Of a stretch of 64,000 nt of DNA, positions 5,600 through 14,654 are shown piece after piece. The position numbers and the translations under genes were made by a program. Source of the DNA: Deltaproteobacteria bacterium (lineage in GTDB: Bacteria > Desulfobacterota > Syntrophobacteria > Syntrophobacterales > Syntrophobacteraceae). The notes beneath the pieces were generated by a model, which was not told where the DNA came from, did not search any database, and worked only from the letters and a program-made list of their open reading frames with translations. The stretch spans positions 62,001 to 126,000 of the forward strand of contig JAJYDE010000003.1 in NCBI GenBank assembly GCA_021777755.1. Direction: 5' to 3'. The stretch's first letter is position 1; each line of letters opens with the position of its first letter.

Positions 5600-5637
5600 A
5601 GCCCCCGGCCCTTTTTTAGGCCCGGGGGCTTTTTTTA
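5600..5637 (+). terminator. Rho-independent terminator after groEL
   Basis: A GC-rich stem (AGCCCCCGG paired with CCGGGGGCT, plus two inner pairs) around a T-rich loop is followed by a run of seven T. It lies about 95 bp after the groEL stop. Confidence 0.92.
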
Positions 5638-5867: not shown

Positions 5868-7679
5868 ATGATCACAGAAAAATGGATCGTCCCGAAGTCC
5901 CCCCAGCCGATAGATGGCGAAGTGGTCCATGAGGGCTATATTTACAAGTTGGGCGAGGCCTCTTTTTTTATGGAGGCTCAGTGGGAAAAACGATGGGCCA
6001 AGCTCATCGTCGGCAAGCCGATAGTGGGAGGGCCGAGCAAGGCGTGGATTGTTTACTTTAAAATGAACGATCACTCGTTGCTTACAAAAACCGATTCCGA
6101 GGTGATCGAGGCTGCCGCGAAATTTCAGAAGACTAAAAATCTGGAGGGAATCGACGCGGCATGGAAGGGGATGCTCACGGCAAGGGGGGGCATTGCTCTT
6201 CATGACATGGCAAAACTTGTGGAAAGGGTCCAAAACGGCCCGCCGAAGATTCCAGGGGGCGGATTCGACCTTCATCCCAAGGCGGGCACCAAGAGGACGT
6301 GGCGCATTTGGACCGGCTCGGAGAGCATGGCCGACCCATTCGGCTGGGCACAGGAGATTCTGGCCCATGCCCCTGGCATCGCCGCCGAATATGAGAACTT
6401 CACAAAGTATGAGGGCGTTAAGTACAAGCCGGCCAATAAATCGGATGCCATCACCGTTAAGGTGGGCGACGGCACGAATATCAGAGTTGCCCTTCTCGCG
6501 CCCAAATCGCTCGATAGCGGCTATCTTGTCACGCGCAAACTGGGGGCGGGCAGCTTCGGCAAATTCCGCTATGCGCTCAAATATAAAGACGACGGAAAAA
6601 ACAAACTTCTTGCCGTTAAGGAATGTCGTACCGTCGAGAGCAACCATGTCGATGGGGGACCCTCCCGAACCAGCACCTCGACCAGAGAGCAGATCCATAA
6701 CGAGTTCGATAGGATGGAGGTATTGGGATGTAAAGTCAAGATCCTCGACAGGATCGAAATTCCCGTTCTGGGCTATGGAAATAATCACGGGCTGAAGATA
6801 TACGGAATAATGGATTTACTCTACGAATTCTCCCTTTTGTTCAGTAGAATAAAAAAGCTGCCCGATGATAAAAAACGCGCCGCCGGCCGCCTGCTTTTGT
6901 GGGACATTGCAACCGATTTGCAGAAGTGCCACCAAAAAGACTATGCCCACCGCGATTTAAAACCCGAAAATATATTTGTCAGAGATGACGGATATATATG
7001 TTTGATGGACTACGGGGGGTGTTTGAAAAACGGGGTTGATTCCCAAAACGTGGGATATACGCCCGGCTACCGGCCCGATGCCTGGGGTGAGGCCCAGCTG
7101 TCTCGTTGGACGTACGATATTTACGCCCTCATGGTGACATGGCTGCTGATGTTTGGTTCCAACATAGTCGCCACGGATAAGGCCTTGAAGGCTATAATCA
7201 AAGAGACCAAGAATAATAATATTGACGCCACCGCCTTGAAGAAGAAGGCGACTTCAAGTGAGGAAAATTATACCATCCTCAAGAGAGCTTTCGAGATCGA
7301 CGAGCAGATGTCCACCTTTTTATTGCCAAGGCTATTGAACGAGAGTCCTCTTTTTTCATTCCCGATCAAGCCACTAAATCCACCCGGCAATTGCAGCGCA
7401 GCCGATATACTCAATGCGCTCACGTCATTAAATTACGGCAATCAAAACGGGGGAGCAATGAACCTCGACAAGGAACTCGGGAATGCAAGGCAGAACATAA
7501 AGGAGATGATTCCGAAGTTACCCGACTACAATGAGCGTGCAACCTATCTCACGAAAATGATCGAGGTCAGGAGTAAATTCGCCGGGCTCTTAAAAGATGC
7601 CAAGAACGAGAACCTGCAAGCGAATAAATTCGCTCCCATGAAGAAAAAATTCAGTTTGTTCGGCTCGAAGTCCGGATAA
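5868..7679 (+). CDS. Eukaryotic-like Ser/Thr protein kinase with N-terminal PH-like region
   Basis: A 603-residue protein. Residues about 218-470 form a Hanks-type kinase: Gly-loop GAGSFG (226-231), ATP-binding Lys251 (LAVKE), catalytic HRDLKPEN (361-368), metal-binding DYG (381-383, in place of DFG) and YDIYAL after the activation loop. Residues about 20-168 read like a pleckstrin-homology domain: EGYIYKLG and W-x-KRWAKL strands, then KRTWRIWTG and a terminal GWAQEI helix. The last 120 residues look helical. No transmembrane segment is seen, so it is probably cytosolic or peripheral. Base composition is lower in GC than its neighbours, suggesting acquisition. The substrate is unknown and no phosphatase lies beside it. 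Confidence 0.8.
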   Translation: MITEKWIVPKSPQPIDGEVVHEGYIYKLGEASFFMEAQWEKRWAKLIVGKPIVGGPSKAWIVYFKMNDHSLLTKTDSEVIEAAAKFQKTKNLEGIDAAWKGMLTARGGIALHDMAKLVERVQNGPPKIPGGGFDLHPKAGTKRTWRIWTGSESMADPFGWAQEILAHAPGIAAEYENFTKYEGVKYKPANKSDAITVKVGDGTNIRVALLAPKSLDSGYLVTRKLGAGSFGKFRYALKYKDDGKNKLLAVKECRTVESNHVDGGPSRTSTSTREQIHNEFDRMEVLGCKVKILDRIEIPVLGYGNNHGLKIYGIMDLLYEFSLLFSRIKKLPDDKKRAAGRLLLWDIATDLQKCHQKDYAHRDLKPENIFVRDDGYICLMDYGGCLKNGVDSQNVGYTPGYRPDAWGEAQLSRWTYDIYALMVTWLLMFGSNIVATDKALKAIIKETKNNNIDATALKKKATSSEENYTILKRAFEIDEQMSTFLLPRLLNESPLFSFPIKPLNPPGNCSAADILNALTSLNYGNQNGGAMNLDKELGNARQNIKEMIPKLPDYNERATYLTKMIEVRSKFAGLLKDAKNENLQANKFAPMKKKFSLFGSKSG

Positions 7680-7762: not shown

Positions 7763-8443
7763 ATGAAAACTCCACTGGAGAAGGAATTGGATCGGCTTCA
7801 AGATGAACTGATAGACCTTGGAGTCATCGTCGAACGCAGTCTGGTCGAAGCGGTCGAGATTCTTGGCAAGGCACGCCTCGAGGACGCCAAGCGGCTGATC
7901 GAAGCCGACTCCGGTATAAACCGCAGACGCTATCAAATCGAATCGGACACCCTGGTGCTGATAGCCAGGCAGCAACCCATGGCCAAAGACCTTCGCAGCC
8001 TTGCGGCCATTCTCGAAATTGCCGGAGAACTGGAAAGAATCGCCGACTACTCCAAGGGGATTGCAAAAATTGCGCTTCAACTGGGGAATAAACCCCTTGT
8101 CAAACCGTTGATCGATGTTCCCAGAATGGCGGCCCTGGCATCGGACATGCTCCACAGGGCGCTCCTGTCGTTTGTGGACAGGGACATCGAGGCGGCCAAT
8201 TCGATCCCCGGGGAAGACCAGCAGATTGACGATCTCTACGATCAGGTTTATCGGGAACTGATGACCTACGTTCTGGCCGACCCCAGAAACATCGACGGCG
8301 CGAGCCACCTCATGTGGGTGGCTCACAACCTGGAGCGCGCCGCCGACCGGGTGGTCAACATCTGTGAGCGCGTCATCTTCACGGTCACCGGCGAGCTGAT
8401 CGAATTCGACGACAGGCTTCCTTGTGAGGAGGCAAAACCCTAG
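7763..8443 (+). CDS. phoU: Phosphate-signalling protein PhoU
   Basis: A 226-residue protein built of two repeated three-helix bundles. Each repeat has the family metal-binding stretch (ELERIADYSKGIAK near residue 90, NLERAADRVVNICERV near 190). PhoU links the Pst phosphate transporter to the PhoR kinase and limits phosphate uptake. Here it stands alone: no pst or phoBR gene is adjacent. GCAGGAGGG lies upstream of the ATG. An inverted repeat follows the stop. Confidence 0.93.
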   Translation: MKTPLEKELDRLQDELIDLGVIVERSLVEAVEILGKARLEDAKRLIEADSGINRRRYQIESDTLVLIARQQPMAKDLRSLAAILEIAGELERIADYSKGIAKIALQLGNKPLVKPLIDVPRMAALASDMLHRALLSFVDRDIEAANSIPGEDQQIDDLYDQVYRELMTYVLADPRNIDGASHLMWVAHNLERAADRVVNICERVIFTVTGELIEFDDRLPCEEAKP

Positions 8444-8451
8444 CAAAAGAA

Positions 8452-8506: not shown

Positions 8507-10159
8507 CTACATCTTTGCAATCCCGCCCGGCTTTTCCAGCTCGGAGGTCCAATAGGGATGATGGAGGTCTTCAAACACCGAGAGAGCCGCCTCGGTTCCC
8601 TGCCCCATGGCGGTTACGATCTGTTTGTAGCCCCCTTCAACATCTCCGGCGCTATAGATTCCCGGGATATTCGTTCTATGATGGGCGTCGTGCTTGATGA
8701 AACCATCCGGGGACAATTCCACGCCAACGGATTTGGCCAGTTCCACCGAAGGCTCGTATCCGATGGCCACGAAAACTCCCTGTACGGGGAAAGGGTAGAC
8801 TTCACCGGTCCGGTTGTTTCGCAAGACAACTTCGGCCACCTTTTCCCTGCCCCTGATCTCCAGGACTTCGGTATCCCAGAGGACCTCGATGTTATTTGAA
8901 AATATGTTTTTTGCCAGATGCTCCTGGGCCCTCAGGCTGTTTCGCCTGTGTACAAGAACCGTCTGGACGCCGATGTTGTGCAGATGCAGCGCTTCGGTCA
9001 CCGCGCTGTTACCCCCGCCGATGACCACCACCTTCCTGTTTTTGAAAAGGGGCCCGTCGCAGGTCGCGCAGTAGCTGACTCCGCGTCCCATGAAGTTCAT
9101 TTCCCCTGTGACGCCCAGCTTCTTGTAATTGGCCCCGGTAGCCAGCACCAGTGCCCTGGCGATATACCTTCTTCTGCCCGTTTGCACCTCGATTCGTTCG
9201 CCGGGCCGAATTTCGACCACTTCTTCTCCCTGAAAGATCTGGACATACTCCAGGGCATGGCTGACCAGGATATCCACCAAAGTTTTGCCTGGAACTCTTG
9301 CAAAACCGGGATAGTTTTCCACGACGGGGGTCGTGGCCACCTGCCCTCCCAGTGCGCCCCGCTCGATTACGGCCGTTCTGAGGCCGCTTCGAACCGTATA
9401 GATCCCCGTGGCAAGGCCGGCCGGTCCCCCGCCCACGATCACGACGTCGGTTTCGATAATCTCCGCATCGGTTTCCGGTATGAAAACGGTCTGTTGTTCG
9501 AGCTTTTCAAGGGATGCGACAAACAGCTCTTCGGGTTGCGCCCCCCTGGCGATAAGAATATCGTTTGCAAAGGCCTGCGGGACACTGAAGGCCGAGTAGC
9601 GATTGGCGGTTTCCTGGTTCGACTGGATGTCGATGATTTCAAGCGAAACCATATCCGGCCTTTCGATGGCCGCCTTCACCGCATTTAGCGCCTCGTCGGG
9701 ACAATAAGGACAGGTGGGGCTCACAAACACCTTGATTTCTCTTCTCCCGCCGATCCTTTTCATAACGTTTAGCGACTGTTCGCTCATATTGCTCGTGTGA
9801 AACCCTATGAGCAGAATCATTCCAACCAGGGTCCTGCCTTCCTCGCCGTAAGGGACGCCCATATATTTTACGGAATAGCGATCGGGTTCAAAAACAAGGG
9901 CCGGAGCGCTCTCCACATTGAGCTTCCTTGCCTCTTCACTGTTCAAGTCGAACTCGCTTAGCACGACCTTCTTGGATATCCTGCTGAAACTCCTCAGAAG
10001 ATCCTGCGCGGCCCTATTGAGAAGATCGTTTCGACCCTTTTCGGTAAAAAGCATTATTCGCACCGCATTGGGAAGCGCATCGAAGGCCGCCCGGAGCTGC
10101 TCTTCGACCTCGGGGCCCCAAAAGGAATTTTGCTCTGTTCCAGGTTTGTCTTCCGCCAT
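8507..10159 (-). CDS. AhpF-like thioredoxin/peroxiredoxin reductase with tandem thioredoxin-fold N-terminus
   Basis: A 550-residue flavoprotein. Residues 1-225 form two thioredoxin folds as in AhpF; only the second has a redox motif (CPYC, Cys150-Cys153). Residues about 235-550 are a thioredoxin-reductase module with FAD motif GGGPAG (243-248), active-site CATC (Cys364-Cys367), NADPH motif GGGNSA (381-386) and a C-terminal FAD segment GIYSAGDV. Electrons would pass from NAD(P)H through FAD and CATC to the N-terminal CPYC and then to a partner. AhpF normally serves the peroxidase AhpC, but no ahpC is near, so the partner is uncertain. Confidence 0.87.
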   Translation of the reverse strand: MAEDKPGTEQNSFWGPEVEEQLRAAFDALPNAVRIMLFTEKGRNDLLNRAAQDLLRSFSRISKKVVLSEFDLNSEEARKLNVESAPALVFEPDRYSVKYMGVPYGEEGRTLVGMILLIGFHTSNMSEQSLNVMKRIGGRREIKVFVSPTCPYCPDEALNAVKAAIERPDMVSLEIIDIQSNQETANRYSAFSVPQAFANDILIARGAQPEELFVASLEKLEQQTVFIPETDAEIIETDVVIVGGGPAGLATGIYTVRSGLRTAVIERGALGGQVATTPVVENYPGFARVPGKTLVDILVSHALEYVQIFQGEEVVEIRPGERIEVQTGRRRYIARALVLATGANYKKLGVTGEMNFMGRGVSYCATCDGPLFKNRKVVVIGGGNSAVTEALHLHNIGVQTVLVHRRNSLRAQEHLAKNIFSNNIEVLWDTEVLEIRGREKVAEVVLRNNRTGEVYPFPVQGVFVAIGYEPSVELAKSVGVELSPDGFIKHDAHHRTNIPGIYSAGDVEGGYKQIVTAMGQGTEAALSVFEDLHHPYWTSELEKPGGIAKM

Positions 10160-13501: not shown

Positions 13502-13891
13502 AGAACCGGAGCAGGGCATAAGCCGGGTTCTGTTCCCCGATGATCCGAAGACCATCGTGGCATGATCATTCCTCTAGCCCCGCCGTTACCGGCGGGATCA
13601 AGCGACCGACCCGAGAGCATCGGACGGGCAATCCTCGAACGCTCTCCTATTGGGTCTTGCTCCAGGTGGGGTTTGCCTGGCTCCCGATGTCACCACCGGG
13701 ACCGGTGAGCTCTTACCTCACCGTTTCACCCTTACCTCAAGCGCGAAGCGCAAGAGGCGGTCTGCTTTCTGTTGCGCTTTCCTCCTCGTCGCCGAGACTG
13801 GGAGTTACCCAGCACCTTGCCCTGTGGAGCCCGGACTTTCCTCCGACCGTTCATGGTGGCGGCCGGCGACCATCCGCCCTACTCCGGATCA
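13502..13891 (-). ncRNA. rnpB: RNase P RNA (bacterial type A)
   Basis: The minus strand carries the conserved cores of RNase P RNA: GAGGAAAGTCCGGGCTCC (13844-13826 region) near the 5' end, a GAGGTAAGGGTGAAA-like segment in the middle, and GAACAGAACCCGGCTTA (13535-13519) near the 3' end. The terminal P1 helix is complete: CCGGAGTAGGGC (13887-13876) pairs with GCCCTGCTCCGG (13517-13506), one G-U pair. The length, about 390 nt, is typical of type A. This RNA is the catalytic part of the ribozyme that removes tRNA 5' leaders. Ends are placed from P1 and may be off by a few bases. Confidence 0.97.
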
Positions 13892-13955
13892 CTCTATTTG
13901 CGCTTTGAGCGACAGCCTCATTTCCACCAGTCGATATATTAACAGATTTACGGCG

Positions 13956-14654
13956 TTATGCAAACGCTCCGACCCGCTTGCGGGCCAGAATGGTAATTTC
14001 GTTCAAGGTCCGCTCCAGTCGAAGCCGGGCAACTTCCACCTCGGCCGGCGTTGCATTCCTTTCCACCTTGATCAAGGGCCCATAAGAGACCGCAATCCTG
14101 GAAAAAGGCATCGGGATGACCGTTTTGTCCCAGGTGGGCAATCGCCAGCATCCTTGGGCGCCAATACTTACGGGCATGATCGGAGCACCGGAATACATGG
14201 CCAGAAACAGGAGCCCTTTTTGCGCGACCAGAGCCGGCCCCTGAGAGCCATCGGCAACAAATCCGCACCCCGGACATTCTTTGAACGCGGCTATCATGTG
14301 TTTTAGCGCCGCGGCCCCACCCTTTCCCGGCGAGCCTCGAAAGGGGAAATACCCGAGCCGGCGGACCATGCGGGCTGCGAATTCGCCGTCACGACTGCGG
14401 CTGGTTAAAGTGAGATAGCCGTGATCCCGGAAAACATAGAGGAGTGTCGGATAGGAAAAATGCCAGAAGCCGGCAATTCTGGGCACAACCTCACTTGCCC
14501 GGCGCATGTTTTCCTCCCCCACGGTAACAAAACGGCAGCTCCGGTGCAGGAGTCTCAAAAATCCGGCGGCCAGGCGGGGCAATGCGGGGGCGGCGGCCGC
14601 AATATTGCGGCGTTTCATCGGCAATTCGTGTATATTGAAGACTCGGGAAGCCAT
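13956..14654 (-). CDS. DUF374 lysophospholipid/lipid A acyltransferase family protein
   Basis: A 232-residue protein of the DUF374 branch of acyltransferases. It shows TLTSRSRDGE, then FRGSPGKGGAAAL, and ADGSQGPALVAQKG, the segment equivalent to the DGPRGP motif. The family transfers acyl or related groups to lipid acceptors at the inner membrane; some members act next to lipid A and Kdo genes. It lies near, but not within, the lpx block. The substrate cannot be read from sequence. It is divergent from aroK (30 bp apart) and ends 64 bp before rnpB. Confidence 0.82.
   Translation of the reverse strand: MASRVFNIHELPMKRRNIAAAAPALPRLAAGFLRLLHRSCRFVTVGEENMRRASEVVPRIAGFWHFSYPTLLYVFRDHGYLTLTSRSRDGEFAARMVRRLGYFPFRGSPGKGGAAALKHMIAAFKECPGCGFVADGSQGPALVAQKGLLFLAMYSGAPIMPVSIGAQGCWRLPTWDKTVIPMPFSRIAVSYGPLIKVERNATPAEVEVARLRLERTLNEITILARKRVGAFA

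Follow-up and report, generated by a model that had tools for sequence, protein, structure and literature searches.

Within the window analysed here, a 64,000-nucleotide stretch of a deltaproteobacterial genome (Syntrophobacteraceae), we identified a gene encoding a 603-amino-acid protein with a Hanks-type Ser/Thr kinase domain preceded by a region with similarity to pleckstrin-homology (PH) domains. The gene is real and complete, and it is restricted to one species; the ORF, the kinase motifs, the lack of the gene in congeners and the empty site are directly established. With moderate confidence, we interpret the product as a soluble bacterial Hanks kinase whose N-terminal PH module, split by an insert, would regulate or localise the kinase, and which was gained by a single lineage. 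PF00169-type PH domains are a hallmark of eukaryotic signalling and, to our knowledge, the pairing of PH with a kinase is very rare in bacteria. If this is a genuine bacterial PH-kinase fusion, such a switch architecture would not need phosphoinositide signalling in order to arise, and the protein would offer a small, tractable system in which to study the control of a kinase by a PH module.

Table 1. Coordinates of the kinase gene, its parts and its neighbours in the window
Feature	Position	Strand	Basis or remark
Putative PH-kinase gene, 603 aa	5868..7679	+	ORF; missing from congeners
Residues 17-66, putative PH beta1-beta3 (GYIYK ... WEKRWAKL ... AWIVYFK)	5916..6065	+	Strongest PH signal
Residues 67-104, probable helical insert in the PH domain	6066..6179	+	PF00169 matches only with the insert removed; helices in both models
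Residues 105-168, putative PH beta4-beta7 and C-terminal helix (GGIALHD, GGFDLHP, TWRIWT, FGWAQEIL)	6180..6371	+	hhalign register of the trimmed sequence
Kinase domain, residues 220-477	6525..7298	+	Pfam Pkinase score; motif positions
C-terminal extension, residues 480-603	7305..7676	+	Helical in low-confidence model; basic end KKKFSLFGSKSG
Intrinsic-terminator-like inverted repeat, predicted to end the groEL transcript	5600..5630	+	13-nt repeat, 92% complementary, then T-run
phoU	7763..8446	+	Pfam PhoU, E = 1e-36; possible co-transcript with the kinase gene

The kinase domain and the distribution of the protein

The Hanks-type Ser/Thr kinase domain is complete and unambiguous. Pfam Pkinase (PF00069) matched at 57.4 bits (E = 1.9e-15), above its gathering cut-off of 31.7, and all catalytic motifs are in place: the G-loop (residues 225-231), AVK (249-251, with K251), HRDLKPEN (361-368, with D363) and DYG (381-383, with D381). 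The last of these replaces DFG, confirming the original prediction of a complete Hanks kinase with this substitution. The activation segment of kinases usually ends in GTxxYxAPE; in this short one, TPGYRPDAW (398-406) stands at the end, with TPGYRPD taking the place of the APE motif. The matched bacterial Ser/Thr kinases (STKs) also carry a TPGY ending. No Pfam family matched the C-terminal extension, and the AGC hydrophobic motif is not present in its tail.

When the whole protein or its N-terminus was used to look for homologues, the searches returned generic kinase-domain matches only, one of them in the GTDB genome contigs. No full-length relative, and none with the N-terminal domain in common, turned up in GTDB genome contigs, plasmids, phages, viral contigs, genomes of the same genus, family, order and class, or 395 genomes of the phylum. 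Two N-terminal matches with E values of about 0.001 in the phylum genomes were discarded, being short frames full of stops. No PF00169-type PH domain was detected among 395 sampled genomes of the phylum by a search in which the control genomes gave no signal either. A survey of Planctomycetota kinases lists 132 accessory Pfam domains, and its main text does not mention PH (PMC11032199).

The N-terminal region as a candidate PH module

The original prediction had described residues 20-168 as PH-like. We find a signal that exceeds shuffles and natural controls, although it is of modest significance, lies mostly in beta1-beta2 and stays below the Pfam cut-off. When untrimmed, residues 1-200 matched no Pfam family at E values up to 10. 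Once the probable insert was removed, PF00169 was the sole match among 24,736 Pfam families, with E = 0.052 after this one deletion and 0.0038 after two further loop trims (profile positions 1-76), the choice of trims being guided by the PH hypothesis. The score with the insert removed, 18.2 bits, is below the gathering cut-off of 25.1. Residues 14-70 alone matched only PF00169 (profile positions 1-25, E = 0.14), the second fragment alone matched nothing in Pfam, and the sequence beyond the hairpin adds about 5 bits to the match. No Pfam match was obtained with five full shuffles or with two versions in which the hairpin was kept and the rest shuffled, and the bacterial PH (bPH) families did not match the N-terminus, trimmed or untrimmed.

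A local PH profile gave a similar picture. This profile was assembled by hand from 16 members and was subjected to a leave-one-out check. Against it, the untrimmed N-terminus ranked above all of 150 shuffles and all of 85 natural 190-residue stretches, and the ranking did not change when every control was given its own best single deletion. In the beta1-beta3 part (residues 17-66), the profile score of 9.3 bits was reached by none of 2000 shuffles, with the signal confined to residues 19-46 and no significant score for the second half alone. With hhalign, the alignment of the trimmed sequence to the same profile spans 94 columns, starting at beta1 and reaching the C-terminal helix, and scores 26.4 versus 19.3 for the best of 150 shuffles. 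The aligned elements follow the PH order: beta1, beta2, beta3, GGIALHD, GGFDLHP, TWRIW and a Trp-containing C-terminal helix. In the PDB, the best sequence match of residues 1-200 was to the SKAP55 PH domain, over its first 30 residues (E = 0.7), and in a phmmer search with the trimmed N-terminus unrelated proteins ranked beside SKAP55.

Structure prediction, which had been suggested as the check on this assignment, yielded single-sequence AlphaFold models with a pLDDT of 35 for the full protein and 41 for residues 14-172. Both of these low-confidence models contain strands, helices at about 76-104, further strands and a final helix, an outcome that does not refute the PH fold and is too low in confidence to carry weight alone. 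A Foldseek search with the residues 14-172 model (pLDDT 41) retrieved nothing meaningful. Since most of the statistical weight lies in the beta1-beta2 hairpin, the claim can be put no more strongly than this: a PH fold of the N-terminal region is likely, and residues 17-168 are probably a PH domain that a helical insert of about 36 residues divides.

The phosphoinositide-binding motif of PH domains, K-x(n)-[KR]-x-R-x-hydrophobic, lies in beta1-beta2. It is incomplete in this protein: K27 and R42 are kept (the counterparts of Akt K14 and R25), while E40 stands at the place of Akt R23. The loss of this basic residue at the middle position weakens the case for phosphoinositide binding; the original suggestion was, more broadly, of lipid or protein ligands. 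The genome encodes two inositol-1-phosphate-synthase-family and five CDP-alcohol phosphotransferase-family proteins, so inositol lipids are conceivable, though unlinked to the kinase. The two synthase-family proteins are divergent (G000:C39:22069-23292 and G000:C13:31440-32606), and the second is flanked by a transposase-like ORF and a sugar-phosphate isomerase/epimerase-like gene. A lipid ligand is speculative, and a protein partner or regulation in cis is the simpler expectation than an inositol lipid.

Gene context and origin

The ORF opens with ATG and closes with TAA after 603 codons, and GGAGG precedes the start codon by 14 nt. It sits between groEL and phoU, well away from the ends of a 147-kb contig; the genome (4.2 Mb) is 96% complete. 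This position and these flanks argue against a stray contaminant contig. The inverted repeat and T-run downstream of groEL are predicted to insulate groEL and the kinase gene from each other. On the other side, 83 bp separate the kinase gene from phoU, which has the same orientation, and no terminator-like site was found on the + strand of the gap, so the two genes may share a transcript. The gene, originally described as standing alone, does so with respect to groEL but not clearly with respect to phoU. A candidate conserved phoU promoter upstream of the kinase gene was dropped, its local alignment being no better than those of shuffles.

All 10 congeners lack the kinase gene. Four have pilC-pilS-groEL-phoU-trxB in the same order, with a groEL-phoU gap of about 290-380 bp and no kinase gene, and in a fifth the 612 bp present upstream of phoU on the contig hold no kinase gene. 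Three more distant congeners carry pstS-pstC-pstA-pstB-pstB between groEL and phoU, and another distant one has pst genes upstream of phoU on a contig that begins inside pstS. In all four the pstSCAB-pstB operon immediately precedes phoU. Given the lack of the gene in all 10 and the empty site in four, its gain in the groEL-phoU gap of the window lineage is the simplest reading. In the four closer congeners pstSCAB-pstB has been lost or moved, so that groEL adjoins phoU, where the window genome has the kinase gene instead. The phoU of one congener (G009:C14:20093-20746) has an in-frame TAG within the aligned stretch.

The composition of the gene bears on how it was acquired. Its GC content of 50.3% is 2.8 sd below that of the other window ORFs, a set that includes a few spurious frames, while against the same ORFs GC3 falls short by 0.6 sd and the codon-usage score by 1.25 sd. 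It is the kinase part that shows the dip (47.9%), not the N-terminal part (54.6%). The low GC noted originally is genuine, but the codon usage does not clearly mark the gene as foreign, and the near-normal GC3 and codon usage lend no support to a recent transfer from a very different genome. Acquisition, as originally proposed, is therefore favoured by the empty site and the congeners and not by codon usage. No convincing target-site duplications or terminal repeats were found at the edges of the gene.

Elsewhere in the window, a class A RNase P RNA gene lies at 13504-13885 on the - strand (Rfam RF00010, 312 bits), and ORFs that overlap it, 13650-14306 among them, are probably spurious. The - strand gene at 8507-10159 encodes a protein that resembles thioredoxin reductase and has a thioredoxin-fold region at its N-terminus (matches to Thioredoxin_3 and Pyr_redox_2), in an AhpF-like layout.

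Proposed function, alternatives and relation to known systems

In the mechanism that we propose, the kinase would be soluble and, as its motifs predict, catalytically competent. Its N-terminal region of about 150 residues would form a PH fold interrupted by the short helical insert, and would hold the kinase inactive in cis, dock it to a protein or an acidic membrane surface, or both. Ligand binding to this module would then free or position the active site. The gene would have entered the groEL-phoU gap in one species lineage and is probably transcribed with phoU. More tentatively, the Akt-like layout could reflect a eukaryotic-type, helix-split PH domain joined directly to a bacterial Hanks kinase by shuffling within bacteria, giving a lipid- or protein-gated switch.

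Other explanations deserve consideration. The N-terminus could be a lineage-specific non-PH domain in which 28 residues, G-Y-x-x-K ... W-x-x-R-W, resemble beta1-beta2 by chance or convergence, the protein being otherwise an ordinary orphan bacterial kinase. The restriction of the local-profile signal to one short stretch, the failure of the untrimmed region to match Pfam and the low pLDDT of both models would all be explained in this way. However, the rest of the module adds to the PF00169 score and aligns in register as far as the C-terminal Trp helix, and we consider a non-PH domain rather unlikely. Capture of PH and kinase together from a eukaryote, from an Akt- or MRCK-like source, would fit the best PDB kinase matches, which are eukaryotic (MRCK and CaMKK, 36 bits), and the match to PF00169 instead of the bacterial PH families. 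The PDB, however, is dominated by eukaryotic kinases, and the highest kinase-domain matches are bacterial, from the 395 genomes of the same phylum (45 bits), and share the TPGY ending. Together with codon usage near that of the host and the lack of introns and of eukaryotic neighbours, this makes such a capture very improbable.

The gene might also be a single-gene anti-phage kinase, a variable cargo between core genes whose N-terminus senses a phage component, similar to PD-T4-6, a system that consists of one kinase, or to the kinase MAD6. It is indeed species-specific cargo in a core-gene gap, and of the defence models mad6 (43 bits) scores highest, followed by PD-T4-6 (41 bits). These matches, however, cover the kinase domain only, with other bacterial kinase families not far behind (LanL, 41 bits). 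No further defence gene was recognised among the scanned neighbouring genes, and the gene edges showed neither a mobile element nor a repeat. A defence role is thus improbable, and we retain the PH-regulated kinase as the preferred reading.

As in Akt/PKB, a PH-like module at the N-terminus of this putative PH-regulated kinase precedes the Ser/Thr kinase domain, and the beta1-beta2 WxxR(W/Y) signature of the Akt1 PH domain aligns with it. In this the predicted Akt-like layout stands, whereas membership in the Akt or AGC kinases is not supported. AGC-type activation segments contain GTPDYxxPE; this kinase instead has TPGYRPD and no hydrophobic-motif AGC tail, and its PH module has a helical insert and an incomplete basic phosphoinositide motif. 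Its catalytic motifs are complete as in bacterial Hanks STKs (PknB-like and unclassified), and its closest matches are bacterial STKs with TPGY. Unlike these, it has a short activation loop with DYG for DFG, and its regulatory module is N-terminal and PH-like, while theirs are C-terminal PASTA, TPR, WD40 or receiver/PAS domains. The PH superfold occurs in bacteria in the PH-like domains (PHb, bPH) known from PF08000 and related families (PMC2817789). In contrast to these families, the oligomeric-ring context is absent here, and it is the eukaryotic-type PF00169, with its long beta1-beta2 hairpin, that gives the signal.
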